Of a DNA stretch of 32,500 bases, positions 2,648 to 25,868 are shown piece by piece. The translations under genes were made by a program, and so were the position numbers. The DNA comes from Acidobacteriota bacterium. GTDB lineage: Bacteria > Acidobacteriota > UBA4820 > DSQY01. The DNA lies in the NCBI GenBank assembly GCA_021787565.1, contig JAJYLT010000020.1, forward strand, positions 1 to 32,500, read 5' to 3'. Positions within the stretch are counted from its first letter, which is position 1. Each line of letters starts with the position of its first letter. The notes under the pieces were generated by a model. The model ran no database searches and was not told the DNA's origin. It saw only the letters and a program-made list of their open reading frames with translations.

Positions 2648-3979
<1,332 letters not shown>

Positions 3980-4036
3980 AGAGTCGCTCCAGGTCAAAGG
4001 GGGGCGCCCGTATCGGTCGGCACCCTCGAAATGGGT

Positions 4037-4882
4037 TCAGCCACGGCGCTCCATGAGGCGGGCTATGCGCTTCTCGATGGGCGGGTGGGTCGAGAACAGG
4101 TTCATCAGGCTGCGGCCGGTGAAGGGCTTGACGATGAACATGTGAGCCGTGGCCGGCGTAGCCTGGAGGGGCACGCGCATGGAGACGGTCTGGAGCTTCT
4201 TCAGGGCATTGGCCAACCCGTAAGGATTTCCCGCCAGGTGGGCCCCCTCCTCGTCGGCCCCGTACTCCCGGGAGCGGGAGATGGCCATCTGGATGAGGAG
4301 GGCGGCGAGCGGCGCCACGATGGCCGCCACCAGCAGGGCCAGCGGGTTGCCGTCATTGCGGTTGCGGCCGCCATACCCGCCGAAGATCAGCCCCCAGCGG
4401 GCGATGGAGGCGATGAACATGATGGCGGAGGCGATGGCCGCGGCCACGGTTCCGATGAGGATGTCCCTGTGGATCACGTGACCCAGTTCGTGTCCGAGGA
4501 CCCCCTTCAGCTCCTCCTCGTCCAGGAGCTGCATGATGCCGTCCGTGACCGCCACGACGGCGTGCTGAGGGTTGCGCCCCGTGGCGAAGGCGTTGGGCGA
4601 GTCATCGGGAATCCTGTAGATCTTCGGTTTGGGGATGTGGGCCGTCTGGCTGAGCTGCGCCACGATGGCGTGCACCCTCGGGGCTTCGGCCTCGCTCAGC
4701 TCCTTGGCGTGATAAGCGGCGAGCACCATTCGGTCGGAAAACCAGTAGGAGAAGAAATTGATGGCGAGCGAGATGAGGAGCGCCACGGCGATGCCGGTCC
4801 GGCCGGCCACGGCGCCGCCAATGAGCATGAGTACCGCCGCCAGAGCGACGAAGAGAACCATGGTCTTCAACCAGTTGCCCAT
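4037..4882 (-). CDS. htpX: HtpX-like M48 membrane zinc metalloprotease
   Basis: A 281-residue inner-membrane protease of family M48B that cleaves misfolded membrane proteins. The HELGH zinc site is at residues 131-135, and the third ligand is probably Glu206 in REYGADEEGA. Two N-terminal membrane segments (about residues 5-25 and 30-50) and two more (about 140-162 and 180-202) match HtpX topology with a cytoplasmic active site. The length fits the family (about 280-300). The start at 4882 has GGAGG seven bases upstream; the reading frame continues further upstream without a ribosome site. It sits between clpB and htrA on the same strand. The 189-base gap from clpB contains a likely clpB terminator, but no convincing promoter for htpX was seen. 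Confidence 0.93.
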   Translation of the reverse strand: MGNWLKTMVLFVALAAVLMLIGGAVAGRTGIAVALLISLAINFFSYWFSDRMVLAAYHAKELSEAEAPRVHAIVAQLSQTAHIPKPKIYRIPDDSPNAFATGRNPQHAVVAVTDGIMQLLDEEELKGVLGHELGHVIHRDILIGTVAAAIASAIMFIASIARWGLIFGGYGGRNRNDGNPLALLVAAIVAPLAALLIQMAISRSREYGADEEGAHLAGNPYGLANALKKLQTVSMRVPLQATPATAHMFIVKPFTGRSLMNLFSTHPPIEKRIARLMERRG

Positions 4883-5071: not shown

Positions 5072-7669
5072 TTACTGTACCACCTCCCCGGCGGTTTCGA
5101 AGGCCAGGTCGTCCCCCGCGCGAGTGACCCGAATCCGGGCGCCGGGGGCGAACCGCCCAGCCAGGACGGCCTTGGACAGAGGGTTCTCCACATGCCGCTG
5201 GATGGCCCTCCGAAGCGGCCTCGCTCCGTACACGGGGTCGTACCCCACCTCGGCCAGGAACCGTTTGGCCTCCTCGGTGACCTCCAGGTGATAGTCCCGC
5301 TCGGCCAGCCGTTTGGCCAGCAGGGCCAGTTGGATCTCCACGATGCCCAGGATGTCCTCCCGGCTCAGGGACCGGAAGAGTACGACCTCGTCCAGTCGGT
5401 TCAGAAACTCGGGCCGGAAGGTGGCCTTCAGCTCCGCGAAAACCTTGTCGCGCATGCCCTCCGGATCGCTCTGGGCCAGCTCCTGGATCCAGCGCGAGCC
5501 GATGTTGCTGGTCATCACCAGGATGGTCTGCGAAAAGTCCACGGTTCGGCCCTTGGCGTCCGTCAGCCGCCCGTCGTCCAGCACCTGGAGCAGGACGTTG
5601 AAGACGTCGGGGTGGGCCTTCTCGACCTCGTCCAGGAGCACCACGCTGTAGGGTCTCCGGTGGACGGCCTCCGTGAGTTGTCCGCCCTCCTCGTGCCCCA
5701 CGTAGCCGGGCGGCGCGCCGATGAGCCGGGCCACGGCGTGCTTCTCCATGTACTCGCTCATGTCCAGGCGGACGACGGCCTTCTCGTCGTCGAAGAGGAA
5801 TTCGGCCAGGGCCTTGCAGAGCTCGGTTTTCCCCACGCCCGTGGGGCCCATGAAGAGGAAGGAGCCGATGGGCCGACGCGGGTCGGACAGCCCCGACCGG
5901 GATCGCCTCACGGCGTCCGAAACCACGGCGAGGGCCTCGTCCTGGCCCACCACCCTGAGCCGGAGCCTCTCCTCCATCTTGAGCAGCTTGCTGCGCTCTC
6001 CCTCGAGCATCTTGGCCACGGGTATGCCCGTCCAGGCCGAGACCACCTCGGCGATGTCCTCCTCCTCCACCTCCTCCTTCAGGAGGGGCCGGTCTTTCTG
6101 GAGCCCCTTGAGTCGCTCCTGGGCTTCCTGGAGGGAGGCCTCGATCTGGGGCAGGCGCCCGTACTTCAGGCGGGCCGCCTCGTCGTAATTCCCCAGCCGC
6201 TCGGCGCGCTCCGCCTCGCCGCGGAGGGCCTCGCCATCCCGCTTGAGCTCCTGGATCCGCTTGATGGCCTCGCGCTCGGCCTGCCACCGGGTGCGCATGG
6301 CCTTGGCCTCCTCTTCGAGGGAGGCGAGCTCGCCCTCCAGCTCGGAAAGCCTGGCCTTGGAGGCCGAGTCTCGCTCTCGGAGCAGGGCCTGCTTCTCGAT
6401 CTGCAGGGAGGCGATGCGCCGCTGGAGGCCGTCGAGTTCGTAAGGCAGGGAGTCCACCTGGATGCGCAGGCGCGCCGCGGCCTCGTCCACCAGATCGATG
6501 GCCTTGTCCGGCAGGTGTCGGTCGTGGAGATACCGGTGGGAGAGCGTCACGGCTGCCACGATGGCCGCGTCGCGGATCCGGACCCCGTGGTGCACCTCGA
6601 AGCGCTCCCGCAGGCCCCGGAGGATGGCGATGGAGTCCTCCACCGTGGGCTCGCCCACGTAGACGGGCTGGAAGCGCCGCTCCAGGGCGGGGTCCTTCTC
6701 GATGTGCTTGCGGTATTCGCTGATGGTGGTGGCCCCGATGGCGTGCAACTCTCCCCTGGCGAGGGCCGGCTTGAGGATGTTGGCGGCGTCCATGGCCCCC
6801 TCGGCCGCGCCCGCCCCCACGAGGGTGTGGAGCTCGTCGATGAAGAGGATGATGTCGCCTTCGCTGGCCGTGATCTCCTTCACGACGGCCTTGAGGCGGT
6901 CCTCGAACTCCCCGCGGAACTTGGTGCCCGCGATGAGGGCCGCCAGGTCGAGCTGGACGAGCCGCTTGTCCATGAGGGATTCGGGCACGTCGCCGTCGGC
7001 CATCCGTCCGGCGAGGCCCTCCACGATGGCCGTCTTTCCGACCCCTGGATCGCCCACCAGGACGGGATTGTTCTTGGTGCGGCGCGCCAGGATCTGGGTC
7101 AATCTCCGGATCTCGGCGTCACGCCCGATGACGGGGTCCAGCTTGCCCAGGCGGGCCATCTCCGTCAGGTCGCGGCCGTACTGTTTGAGGGCCTGATACT
7201 TGCCCTCCGGGTTCGGGTCGGTGATCCGCTGCGAGCCTCGCACGTCCTGAAGCGCCTTCAGGAGGCCGTCCCTCCGGAGCCCGAGGGAAAGGAGGATCTT
7301 CGAGGCCCCGGTTCCGGTGGCCTCCAGGGCGGCCAGAAGGACGTGTTCGGTGGAGACGAAGTCGTCCTTGAAGAACTTGGCCTGCCCCATGGCGGCCTCC
7401 AGGATCTGGATGGCCGGCCGGGAAAGGGCGGGTTCCTGACCCTGGTGGGTCTTGGGGAGCCTGTCGATGGTCTCTTGCAGCCGGTTCTTGAGGGCGAGGG
7501 GGTCAACCTGGAGCCGTTCCAGCAGGGCAGGCACGACGCCCCCCTCCTGGGAGACCAGGGCGAGGACGAGGTGTTCGGGAGCGACTTCGGGATTCCGCTC
7601 GCTGGCGGCCTTCTGGGACGCGGCCTCCAGGGCCTCCCTCGCCTTTTCCGTGAACTGTTCCCAACGCAT
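5072..7669 (-). CDS. clpB: ATP-dependent disaggregase ClpB
   Basis: An 865-residue Hsp100 disaggregase that, with DnaK, pulls apart protein aggregates. It has the full domain order: Clp N-domain repeats (1-145), AAA+ D1 with Walker A GDPGVGKT (206-213) and Walker B IDEL (Asp278-Glu279), a long coiled-coil middle domain (about 405-525), and AAA+ D2 with Walker A GPTGVGKT (608-615), the GYVG pore loop (655-658) and Walker B LLDE (Asp680-Glu681). The middle domain separates ClpB from ClpA and ClpX. The start at 7669 matches the usual [10 protein letters not shown] opening and has GAGAGG upstream. The C-terminus ends in VVQ without a recognisable extra domain. It heads the protein quality-control block and has a near-consensus promoter. 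Confidence 0.97.
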
Positions 7670-7706
7670 AGGATGACCTCTCCGCTCAAGATCTAAGTAG
7701 AACGCC

Positions 7707-7735
7707 AATATAATTCTTTAGTATTGTGTTGTCAA
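7707..7735 (-). promoter_or_regulatory. Housekeeping-type promoter of clpB
   Basis: On the minus strand TTGACA (7730-7735) and TATATT (7707-7712) are separated by exactly 17 bases, very close to the sigma70 consensus. The stretch is AT-rich in a GC-rich region and lies 38 bases upstream of the clpB start codon. No CIRCE or HAIR inverted repeat was seen here, so heat control, if any, is not explained by this site. Confidence 0.72.
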
Positions 7736-17609: not shown

Positions 17610-18952
17610 CCACTCCCATCCGCATCCTGGTCGTGGACGACGAGTTCAGCGTGAGGGACTCGCTCCAGGCCTGGTTTCGGGATTCCGGATACGAGACCGA
17701 GGTGGCCGCCAGCGGCAAGGAGGCGCTCGCCAAGATGGGCCGGCAGCGTTTCGACATCTTCCTTCTGGACATCAAGATGGCCGGGATGGATGGCCTGGAA
17801 CTGCAAGAGACGATCAAGGAGCACCAGGAGAACCCCATCATCATCTTCATGACCGCCTACGCGTCCGTGGACACGGCGGTCCGCGCGCTGAAGCTGGGCG
17901 CCTTTGACTACGTCACCAAGCCCATCGACCCGGAGGAGCTGGAACGCCTGGTGCGCAACGCGGCCGAGAGGCGGCTCCTCCAGAAAGAAAACCTCTCCCT
18001 GAAAGTGCAGATCGAAGAGCTGACCCCCTTCAAGGACATCATCGGCGAAAGCCAGCCCATCCAGGACGTGGTCGAGCTGATCAAGAACGTGGCGCCCACG
18101 GACACGACGGTGCTCATCCGCGGCGAGAGCGGAACCGGGAAGGAGCTCGTGGCCAGGGCCATCCACGCCGCCAGCCCGCGACGGTTCATGCCCTTCGTCA
18201 CCGTGAACTGCGGCGCCCTGCCCGAAGGTCTCCTGGAGAGCGAGCTCTTTGGACACGAGCAGGGGGCCTTCACCGGCGCGCAGTTCCGGCACAAGGGGAA
18301 GTTCGAGCTAGCGGATGGCGGCACGCTCTTCCTGGACGAGATCGGGGACGTCAGCCTCAAGACCCAGACCGACCTCCTCCGGGTGCTCCAGGAGACGGAG
18401 ATCACCCGACTCGGCGGCACCAAGCCCATCAAGGTGGACTTCCGGCTCATCGCCGCGACGAACGGCGACATCGAGGCGCGCGTGGCCGAGAAGAGCTTCC
18501 GCGAGGACGTCTATTACCGCCTGAACGTTTTTCCCATCGTGTTGCCGAGCTTGAAGGCGCGGTCTGGGGACATCCCGATGCTGGCCGGTTATTTCCTCCA
18601 GAAGTACGCCCGGAAGATGAACCGGCCGATCCGGGGCATCTCGGCTTCCGCCATGGCCCTGCTTTCCCAGCACTCCTGGCTTGGAAACGTGCGGGAGTTG
18701 GAGAACTCCATCGAGCGGGCGGTCATTTTCTGCAAGGGCGACGAACTGTTGCCCGAGCACCTGCCGCTTCATAGGTCCGCCGCCTCCGAGGGCTCCTCGG
18801 GCCTCCCCCTGTCCGAAGTGGAGAAGATCCACATCCAGAGGGTCCTGGCGGAGACCGGCGGGAACATCTCCAAGTCGGCCCGCGTCCTGGGCATCGACCG
18901 GGCGACCCTCTACAACAAGATCAAACGCTACGGGCTCCTCGTACGAGAATGA
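17606..18952 (+). CDS. NtrC-family sigma54-dependent response regulator
   Basis: A 448-residue transcription activator that remodels sigma54 RNA polymerase. The receiver domain (1-120) has Asp11/Asp12, phospho-acceptor Asp55 (FLLDIKM) and Lys105 (VTKP). The AAA+ domain (about 145-380) has Walker A GESGTGKE (173-180), the sigma54-contacting loop GAFTGA (220-225) and Walker B LFLDE (Asp244-Glu245). A Fis-type helix-turn-helix ends the protein (GGNISKSARVLGIDRATLYNKI). ATG 17606 overlaps the kinase stop (ATGA) and follows GGAGG. It is the partner of the heme-motif kinase upstream. Its target promoters are unknown. Two sigma54-type promoters occur at 25348-25361 and 25499-25515 in this window, but that connection is a guess. 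Confidence 0.95.
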   Translation: MTTPIRILVVDDEFSVRDSLQAWFRDSGYETEVAASGKEALAKMGRQRFDIFLLDIKMAGMDGLELQETIKEHQENPIIIFMTAYASVDTAVRALKLGAFDYVTKPIDPEELERLVRNAAERRLLQKENLSLKVQIEELTPFKDIIGESQPIQDVVELIKNVAPTDTTVLIRGESGTGKELVARAIHAASPRRFMPFVTVNCGALPEGLLESELFGHEQGAFTGAQFRHKGKFELADGGTLFLDEIGDVSLKTQTDLLRVLQETEITRLGGTKPIKVDFRLIAATNGDIEARVAEKSFREDVYYRLNVFPIVLPSLKARSGDIPMLAGYFLQKYARKMNRPIRGISASAMALLSQHSWLGNVRELENSIERAVIFCKGDELLPEHLPLHRSAASEGSSGLPLSEVEKIHIQRVLAETGGNISKSARVLGIDRATLYNKIKRYGLLVRE

Positions 18953-22513: not shown

Positions 22514-22933
22514 TCAAGTGGAAACCCGCGCGCGCCTGGGCTCTACCTCCTCCTTGAGGAACCGCACCACGTCGGCGGTGGAGGTCCCGGGGGTGAAGAT
22601 CCTGGCGACGCCCGCCTTCAGCAGCTCCGGGATGTCCTCGTCGGGGATGATCCCTCCGCCGAAGACCACCACGTCCTCGGCGCCCTTCTCCTTCAGCAGC
22701 CGGGTGATCTTGGGAAAGAGCGTTCCGTGGGCGCCGGAGAGGATGGAGAGGCCGATGGCGTCCACGTCCTCTTGCAGCGCGGTGGCGACCACCTGCTCCG
22801 GGGTCTGGTGGAGTCCCGTGTAGATGACCTCGTAGCCCGCGTCCCTCAGGGCCCTGGCGATGATCTTGGCCCCCCGGTCGTGGCCGTCCAGCCCCACCTT
22901 GCCGACCAGGAGCCTCAACGTCTGCTTGGCCAT
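22514..22933 (-). CDS. Methylmalonyl-CoA mutase, cobalamin-binding subunit
   Basis: A 139-residue B12-binding protein. The base-off cobalamin motif DxHxxG is at Asp16-Gly21 (DGHDRG), SxL at Ser63 (LSILS), and GGG at 92-94, all in a Rossmann-like fold. This is the C-terminal domain of methylmalonyl-CoA mutase as a separate chain; its partner is the large subunit at 23597-25267. Together they interconvert methylmalonyl-CoA and succinyl-CoA in propionate and branched-chain catabolism or synthesis. GGAGGAGG lies seven bases before the start at 22933. Some related acyl-CoA mutases (ethylmalonyl-, isobutyryl-) use similar small subunits, so the exact substrate is inferred. Confidence 0.92.
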
Positions 22934-22962
22934 GGTGCCTCCTCCAACTGGTCCAGTATACC

Positions 22963-23511
22963 TCACCTGCGATGGCTCAGGAGCAGCCAGACGCCGAGGC
23001 CGAATGCCAGCAGCAGCGCCGCCGCCAGGATGGGGAAGAGGAGAACGAGCAGGGAGGTCAGCGTGGCCCCGCCCGCTTCCGCCGTGGACACGCCCGGGTT
23101 GGCGGCGCCCAGGGTGAACAGGGAGCTGAGCGCCCGTGCCTTGACCGTGAGAAGCTGCACCGTCCCGGCGGCGGCCCCCCCGGCGATGACGGCTAGGCTC
23201 CAGCGGAGCCAAGGGCTCATCTCCTGCACTACGGAGGCTGTGACTAGAATGCCCGCCACTATTGCGGCGGGAGTGGCGACGGCGTCCAGCAGGTTGTCCA
23301 GCCAGGGGACGTAGTAGGCGATCACCTCGAGCAGGGTGGCCGTGCCGAAGGCGAGGAGTGCGGGCCAAGTACCGATCCACTCAAAACCGGGGGCGAGCTT
23401 CAGGTGGCCGGCCATGGCGGCGATGCTCATCACCAGCGGCGGGATGAACACTCGGAAGCCGCAGGCGGCCGCCAGGCCGATCCCCACCAGGACGCTCAGG
23501 GCCGCTTCCAT
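22963..23511 (-). CDS. DUF4126 family membrane protein
   Basis: A 182-residue integral membrane protein of the DUF4126 family. The opening has the family look ([24 protein letters not shown]), as does the middle [21 protein letters not shown]. About five hydrophobic helices are visible. Function is unknown. It sits between the two methylmalonyl-CoA mutase subunit genes, 85 bases after the large one and 29 before the small one, so it is probably co-transcribed with them. GAGG lies about seven bases before the start at 23511. Confidence 0.87.
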
Positions 23512-23596: not shown

Positions 23597-25267
<1,671 letters not shown>

Positions 25268-25347
25268 GGCGCTACCTCGCTCCGAAAGGGGCCCGATGAC
25301 GGGCCATTCCGCTCAATCCTTATTTATCGTACCACACGGCACTTTCG

Positions 25348-25361
25348 GCAAGGTTCGTGCC
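25348..25361 (-). promoter_or_regulatory. Sigma54-type (-24/-12) promoter facing methylmalonyl-CoA mutase
   Basis: The minus strand reads GGCACGAACCTTGC, matching the sigma54 core GGCACG-N4-TTGC with the required ten bases between GG and GC. Transcription would start near 25337 and leave a leader of about 70 bases before the start codon. A weaker sigma70-like pair (TTGCCG 25346-25351, GATAAA 25323-25328, 17-base spacer) overlaps it and is the alternative reading. Confidence 0.6.
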
Positions 25362-25389
25362 TCGGAGGACCCCCGTGCCCGCTTGGCGC

Positions 25390-25420
25390 TGCCAAAGTGG
25401 CCTATAGCGCCAAATTGGCA
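25390..25420. promoter_or_regulatory. Dyad of TTGGC/GCCAA half-sites, candidate activator-binding site
   Basis: Outer TGCCAA and TTGGCA and inner TGGC and GCCA form a 31-base imperfect dyad centred at about 25405, with three mismatches in 13-base arms. An extra TTGGC half-site lies at 25383-25387. It stands between two divergent sigma54-type promoters, about 50 bases from one and 100 from the other, the usual distance for an enhancer of an NtrC-type activator. The protein that binds is not known. Confidence 0.42.
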
Positions 25421-25498
25421 CTGACCCGGCCGCCGGGAATCCCCGGGAAGCCGTGGGATTATCTCTATTTTGCAATGAAATCCATGGCACGCCGTCCC

Positions 25499-25515
25499 TT
25501 GGCACGCCCGTTGCT
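25499..25515 (+). promoter_or_regulatory. Consensus sigma54 promoter of the lysine-rich exported protein
   Basis: TTGGCACGCCCGTTGCT matches the sigma54 consensus YTGGCACG-N4-TTGCW at every defined base. The predicted start near 25526 leaves a leader of about 20 bases that contains AGGAGGT and ends at ATG 25547, an ideal layout. A partial copy (TGGCACGCCGT) sits 14 bases upstream at about 25485. Confidence 0.75.
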
Positions 25516-25546
25516 GACGAGGAGGGCGGTGCTAGGAGGTATGCAG

Positions 25547-25813
25547 ATGAAGCGAATTTTGGTCGCAACTTTGGCTGGTCTCATGACGATGGGCGCGCTG
25601 GCCCTGCAGGCTCCCGCTCCGGGGAGTGCTGCAAAGACCCAGAAGCCCGCCGCCGTGGCCTCGAAGGCCCCGGCGAAGAAGGCGCAGGTCCACAAGAAGG
25701 CCAAAAAGAAGGCCATGAAGAAGGCCGAGCACAAGGCCATGGCCCACAAGAAGGCTGCGCCGAAGAAGAGCTCTTCCAAACCCCATCCTGCCCCTTCCAA
25801 ACCCACCAAGTAA
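25547..25813 (+). CDS. Small exported lysine/alanine-rich protein
   Basis: An 88-residue protein of unknown function. ATG 25547 is preferred over the in-frame ATG at 25541 because AGGAGGT ends right at 25540, giving the normal six-base spacing only for the later start. The signal peptide (MKRILVATLAGLMTMGALALQA) is followed by a mature part made almost wholly of Lys, Ala, Pro, His and Ser (KKAKKKAMKKAEHKAMAHKKAA), strongly basic and probably disordered. Such composition resembles histone-H1-like tails, but the export signal points to the periplasm or surface, where it might bind anionic polymers, nucleic acid or metal through its histidines. It has its own sigma54-type promoter and a hairpin after the stop. 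Confidence 0.8.
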   Translation: MKRILVATLAGLMTMGALALQAPAPGSAAKTQKPAAVASKAPAKKAQVHKKAKKKAMKKAEHKAMAHKKAAPKKSSSKPHPAPSKPTK

Positions 25814-25840: not shown

Positions 25841-25868
25841 GGCCCGTCCCCTCCCCCGGGGGCGGGCC
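25841..25868 (+). terminator. Hairpin terminator after the lysine-rich gene
   Basis: GGCCCGTCCCC pairs with GGGGGCGGGCC (one U-G pair) around a TCCCCC loop, 28 bases past the stop codon. It is followed by AACCTTATTA, which is AU-rich without a pure U run. The rest of the gap to 26018 contains only a small CCCCC-TGC-GGGGG hairpin (25899-25911); no gene was seen. Confidence 0.5.

Follow-up and report, generated by a model that had tools for sequence, protein, structure and literature searches.

A conserved sigma54-type promoter with paired palindromes before a small exported protein gene in an acidobacterium, and its candidate HtrA-linked activator

A small exported basic protein of this Acidobacteriota genome is probably expressed from a sigma54 promoter by an NtrC-type response regulator, which would act from a pair of palindromes upstream of that promoter and would also drive expression of the protease HtrA and of a short C-rich RNA, probably as an envelope-stress response. 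As judged from sequence, the comparison of genomes gives a conserved promoter and palindrome, a palindrome on the start codon of the regulator gene, a linkage between regulator and HtrA, and a target architecture shared across the phylum. The starting point was an earlier note on the window, that is, the whole stretch of 32,500 nucleotides that was analysed, in which the promoter region was read as a shared control of the exported protein and of a split methylmalonyl-CoA mutase.

The gap and its two sigma54-type sites

The features are collected in Table 1. The starts of the mutase (25267, minus strand) and of the exported basic protein (25547, plus strand) bound a gap of 279 bases, 25268–25546. 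Direct matching confirms that two GGCACG-N4-TTGC sites face away from each other in this gap. They are the only exact matches in the window, where 0.13 are expected, and none of 100 shuffles contained two. Genome-wide there are 16 exact matches compared to 6 for the reversed control, and a single match is thus no proof of function.

At the site facing the small gene, the −24 GG and −12 GC cores are ten bases apart in the form TGGCACG-N4-TTGC. The site facing the mutase, read from 25362 to 25348 on the minus strand, has one mismatch, at the T before the GG. The predicted starts, ca 25526 on the plus strand and ca 25337 on the minus strand, come from motif geometry only. The genome contains one rpoN gene and ca 24 sigma54-activator domains, so both partners of a sigma54 promoter are present.

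Table 1. Features of the gap and its surroundings, and loci with the same architecture elsewhere in the phylum.
Feature	Position or locus	Strand	Basis and remarks
Separate B12-binding-domain protein, other half of split mutase	22514–23380	−	B12-binding, 92.6 bits
Methylmalonyl-CoA mutase large-subunit-type gene	23597–25267	−	MM_CoA_mutase, 754 bits
Sigma54-like site AGGCACGAACCTTGC	25348–25362	−	10/11 here; faces mutase; function uncertain
Palindrome copy 1 GTGCCCGCTTGGCGC	25375–25389		11/12; predicted activator site
31-base dyad of the earlier note	25383–25413		Direct reading; facing halves of copies 1 and 2
Weak third palindrome-like copy CTGCCAAAGTGGCCT	25389–25403		9/12
Palindrome copy 2 GCGCCAAATTGGCAC	25407–25421		12/12; predicted activator site (UAS)
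Sigma54 −24/−12 promoter TGGCACGCCCGTTGC	25500–25514	+	Perfect match; faces small exported protein
Ribosome-binding site AGGAGG of small gene	25534–25539	+	Direct reading; counterpart in relatives
88-aa lysine/alanine-rich protein, apparent signal peptide	25547–25813	+	ORF and family alignment of locus
GC-rich hairpin after small gene, preceded by C-rich stretch	25841–25868	+	Direct reading
Short C-rich RNA-like stretch with strong terminator hairpin	L174, L183, L184, L180		Behind palindrome and sigma54 promoter
Other structured RNA-like transcripts	L241–L243 (f14); L252, L253, L255 (f26/f64)		C-rich loops CUCCCC, CCUCCUCC, CCCCCC
HtrA	L257, L258		Behind palindrome and sigma54 promoter; two more families
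TonB-receptor-type (outer-membrane receptor) targets	L260, L261		
Small sigma70-region-4 protein targets	L247–L250 (f4)		Conserved, 119 aa; sole domain sigma70 region 4
Cytidylate kinase-like protein with BON domain	L169		Target

The 31-base dyad that was described between the two sites (TTGGCGCT...AGCGCCAA) is present. It is formed, more precisely, by two 15-bp palindromes that lie 32 bp apart and have the consensus GYGCCA-N3-TGGCRC, of which it comprises the inner halves that face each other. It is important to point out that this consensus was derived from these same gap sequences, compared in six family members, and that the independent check on it is the regulator gene discussed below. 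The arrangement is the one expected for an NtrC-type activator, with repeated palindromic upstream sites ca 80–150 bp before the start. The third, weaker copy may be due to chance.

Conservation in the family

The locus is kept in six family members (G001, G002, G003, G004, G005 and G007), with mutases that are 86–98% identical. Acidobacterial MAGs are among the nearest named relatives of the mutase. In all six, the small-gene promoter is found at the same place with 9–11 of its 11 positions matching and is followed by a ribosome-binding site, and every relative having the locus carries a palindrome copy of at least 10/12 at 92–117 bp upstream of the −24 GG. The gap DNA around the promoter and the palindrome aligns poorly outside the genus. 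An alignment of the gap with that of the congener, 281 columns long, shows 36 substitutions. The small-gene promoter is free of them, the mutase-facing site has one (in the spacer), and palindrome copies 1 and 2 have one and two, respectively. The small-gene side of the original interpretation, that is, a conserved sigma54 promoter with an activator-type dyad before an exported basic protein, is thus supported at the sequence level across the six members. In G006 the mutase is present, and no such promoter or small gene was seen there.

The 88-aa protein itself, for which a Pfam search found no family and which may resemble the acid-shock protein Asr, is poorly conserved among the relatives, five of the six encoding a short signal-peptide-like basic or proline-rich protein. 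In G007 (L086) the frame is reduced to 24 codons, and the promoter, the palindrome, the ribosome-binding site and the C-rich 3′ end are nevertheless kept. Since several relatives have a C-rich 3′ UTR and since these elements outlast the collapse of the frame in G007, one can speculate that the small-gene transcript also acts as an RNA. The terminator scan gave no terminator call for the hairpin after the gene.

The mutase-facing site behaves differently. It scores 10/11 only in the present genome and in the congener, which are two species of one genus, while in the five other family members with the locus the best site is no better than in shuffled DNA (P 0.18–0.88). The earlier note had proposed that both sites are working sigma54 promoters on one enhancer, such that the split mutase and the exported protein would be induced together, and had named loss of the cores in close relatives as evidence against this. 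Both sites are indeed strong here and kept in the congener, and the palindromes lie between them, with copy 2 ca 46–60 bp behind the mutase-facing GG, which is a workable distance. However, for the mutase-facing core this is what the family shows, as five relatives with the locus lack it, and a possible extended −10 element (TGGTACGAT) was seen by eye upstream of the mutase, on the minus strand near 25330; a strict scan did not recover it. We therefore regard the proposal as unlikely. By this comparison, shared control of the mutase fails at the family level and is not a conserved feature, although the small-gene half of the idea, conserved in the family, stands. One enhancer may serve both genes within this genus, and that the mutase-facing site is a genus-level addition that works is conceivable but doubtful. 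The mutase would then be at most a genus-level recruit of the regulon.

The candidate activator

A palindrome scan of the activator loci in this genome found a 472-aa response regulator, encoded at G000:C7:18076–19491 and called the C7 regulator below. It has the receiver-AAA+-HTH_8 architecture with a GSFTGA loop, and its scores (Sigma54_activat 250 bits, HTH_8 59 bits) place it among the NtrC-type activators. It falls below the curated cut-offs of the AtoC, NtrC, LuxO, ZraR and PspF models, the best being AtoC with 472.5 compared to 714. The gene has a sigma54 promoter of its own, and in all 11 orthologues found in the order, which come from two families and are 58–98% identical to the C7 regulator, a palindrome of 10–12/12 lies exactly over the start codon, downstream of that promoter. 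Conservation extends to the activator loop, which reads GAFTGA or GSFTGA, and to the recognition helix. The exact combined pattern of the regulator gene occurs in 9 of 13 order genomes and in 1 of 383 other phylum genomes, compared to 2 control matches.

In the order, the gene directly after the regulator encodes a Do/HtrA protease (460.2 bits, above the degP_htrA_DO cut-off of 416.2). Three other families have an orthologous regulator, 54–55% identical, followed by a palindrome, a sigma54 promoter and a gene that by eye is receiver-domain-like; in two of these three, an HtrA-like frame was seen by eye further on. An HtrA-like gene directly follows the regulator in f4, while in f82, f16 and f46 the best regulator match does not adjoin HtrA within the flanks that were fetched.

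The palindrome on the start codon of this gene, beside HtrA, makes the C7 regulator the likely activator, and it is from this link of genomic position that we infer its binding to the palindrome. Against this choice stands the number of activators in the genome, ca 24. One that has to be considered is a second receiver-AAA+-HTH_8 sigma54 activator with a GAFTGA loop, located in the window itself (ca 17612–18952, plus strand). It is only ca 6.6 kb away, and activators are often encoded near their targets. However, it is on the C7 regulator gene that the palindrome is found, in 11 of 11 genomes, and apart from those in the gap the window has one strong palindrome match, at 4657, which is away from the 17612–18952 gene. 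That this or some other sigma54 activator is responsible is accordingly rather improbable. Still more improbable is that an unrelated repressor uses the palindrome as its operator, with the sigma54-like sites being coincidental or run by another activator. The palindrome is indeed compact, and its place downstream of the promoter on the regulator gene would suit a repressor, but across the family it is paired with sigma54 promoters at 92–117 bp in DNA that cannot be aligned, and across the phylum the combination gives 67 matches against 7 for the control.

With the C7 regulator as the activator, the dyad would be a pair of binding sites for this one protein. Once phosphorylated, the regulator would bind both palindromes, ca 105–150 bp upstream of the predicted start at ca 25526, and would by DNA looping activate the sigma54 polymerase at 25500–25514. 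The small basic protein would thereby be made together with HtrA and the short C-rich RNA. The presumed signal is envelope stress, and the basic protein would presumably protect the envelope. On the regulator's own gene, the position of the palindrome could mean repression.

Predicted targets across the phylum and C-rich transcripts

When 396 phylum genomes were searched for a palindrome with a sigma54 promoter at the appropriate distance behind it, 53 of them contained 67 matches in total, compared to 7 with the reversed control. A part of these matches will have arisen by chance, and outside the order it may be a related regulator to which the targets respond. Apart from the protein genes in Table 1, the targets include short noncoding-looking stretches that end in GC hairpins.

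In the present genome, one such locus (L167, G000:C7:35602–35672 and downstream) has the palindrome and the sigma54 promoter before a short RNA-like stretch that is C-rich and carries a strong terminator hairpin. The predicted RNA, from C7:35659, is ca 58 nt long, begins with UAUCCCCUCCUCCCUUCC and ends in a strong hairpin with a U-rich tail. It has counterparts in G001, G003, G008 and G009, and different RNA-like transcripts are found in G002/G005, f14, f26 and f64. Four lineages show clear C-rich, G-poor tracts, and elsewhere such tracts are weak or missing. When they were tested for, single loci reached only modest P values of 0.02–0.09, and the test failed in the case of G002/G005, of f64 and of one locus in f26; C-richness is thus frequent but not universal. 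An Rfam scan of the window, L163, L170, L171, L172 and L174 gave only tRNAs above the gathering score. Hfq is encoded in 13 of 13 order genomes.

That C-rich RNA-like transcripts appear repeatedly after this type of promoter would connect sigma54 with the post-transcriptional control of the envelope in an unusual way. It is quite possible, if somewhat short of probable, that much of the phylum runs its envelope-stress response through sigma54, with one HtrA-linked NtrC-type regulator controlling HtrA, small exported basic proteins, outer-membrane receptors and several unrelated C-rich small RNAs, and thus doing the job of sigmaE and Cpx in E. coli.

Relation to known systems

In the sigmaE and Cpx responses of E. 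coli, a single regulator governs HtrA/DegP together with small periplasmic proteins and small RNAs. The regulon proposed here would resemble them if our reading is right, but they use an ECF sigma factor or an OmpR-type regulator, whereas sigma54 and an NtrC-type activator would be used here. C-rich anti-Shine-Dalgarno small RNAs carry unpaired C-rich tracts. The transcripts here are likewise short and terminated, with unpaired C-rich tracts that could in principle pair with G-rich ribosome-binding sites; they differ in having sigma54 promoters, in giving no Rfam match in the scanned loci, and in that their C-richness is clear in four lineages only.

ZraSR and PspF are examples of sigma54 control of envelope-related genes, and in this they are similar to the proposed system. 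The C7 regulator, however, is far below the cut-offs of the ZraR and PspF models (399 compared to 760 bits and 286 compared to 443.6 bits, respectively). PspF is a membrane-stress activator, and there is a general proposal that connects sigma54 with the cell exterior (PMC3162934); that paper mentions neither Acidobacteria nor HtrA in its text.

A close parallel is DVU1419 of Desulfovibrio vulgaris, a sigma54 activator of the two-component type. It binds upstream of the operon to which it belongs, controls a noncoding RNA and is assigned to envelope stress response and posttranscriptional regulation (PMC3333781, PMC4641369). In the text consulted, no HtrA is named among the DVU1419 targets. The DVU1419 site is given there as upstream of its own operon, whereas the palindrome here is on the regulator start codon.

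No paper combining Acidobacteria, RpoN, enhancer binding and regulon was found in the literature searched. Since systems of the DVU1419 type and the general proposal for sigma54 and the cell exterior are known, while no acidobacterial case was found, the present one would be a new regulon of a known kind. No earlier description was found of the operator, the candidate activator and the HtrA link, which suggests that they are undescribed. The Acidobacteriota are abundant in soil, and their gene regulation has received little attention. With an operator defined, and with a candidate activator and a list of targets (HtrA, the exported basic peptide, RNA-like transcripts and receptors) at hand, the whole stress circuit becomes testable.

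Other motif matches

Several further matches were set aside. A palindrome at C7:21025, beside HtrA, was rejected as an operator, as it resembles the stem of a terminator with a T-rich tail behind it, and many genome matches to YGCCANNNTGGCR were left out as targets because of their GC-rich centres. L166, and also L176, L181, L185 and others that apparently lie in open frames, were by eye put down as probable chance matches. In the window, an 11/12 palindrome (GCGCCACGATGGCGT, 4657–4671) is found between an HtrA-like protease gene (2648–3997) and a ClpB-type gene (5072–7708); it is probably coding and due to chance. Two other exact sigma54 sites of this genome, L153 and L148, precede a prepilin-like protein and a 297-aa protein with an apparent signal peptide; a strong palindrome match was not seen near them, and they are likely served by other activators.
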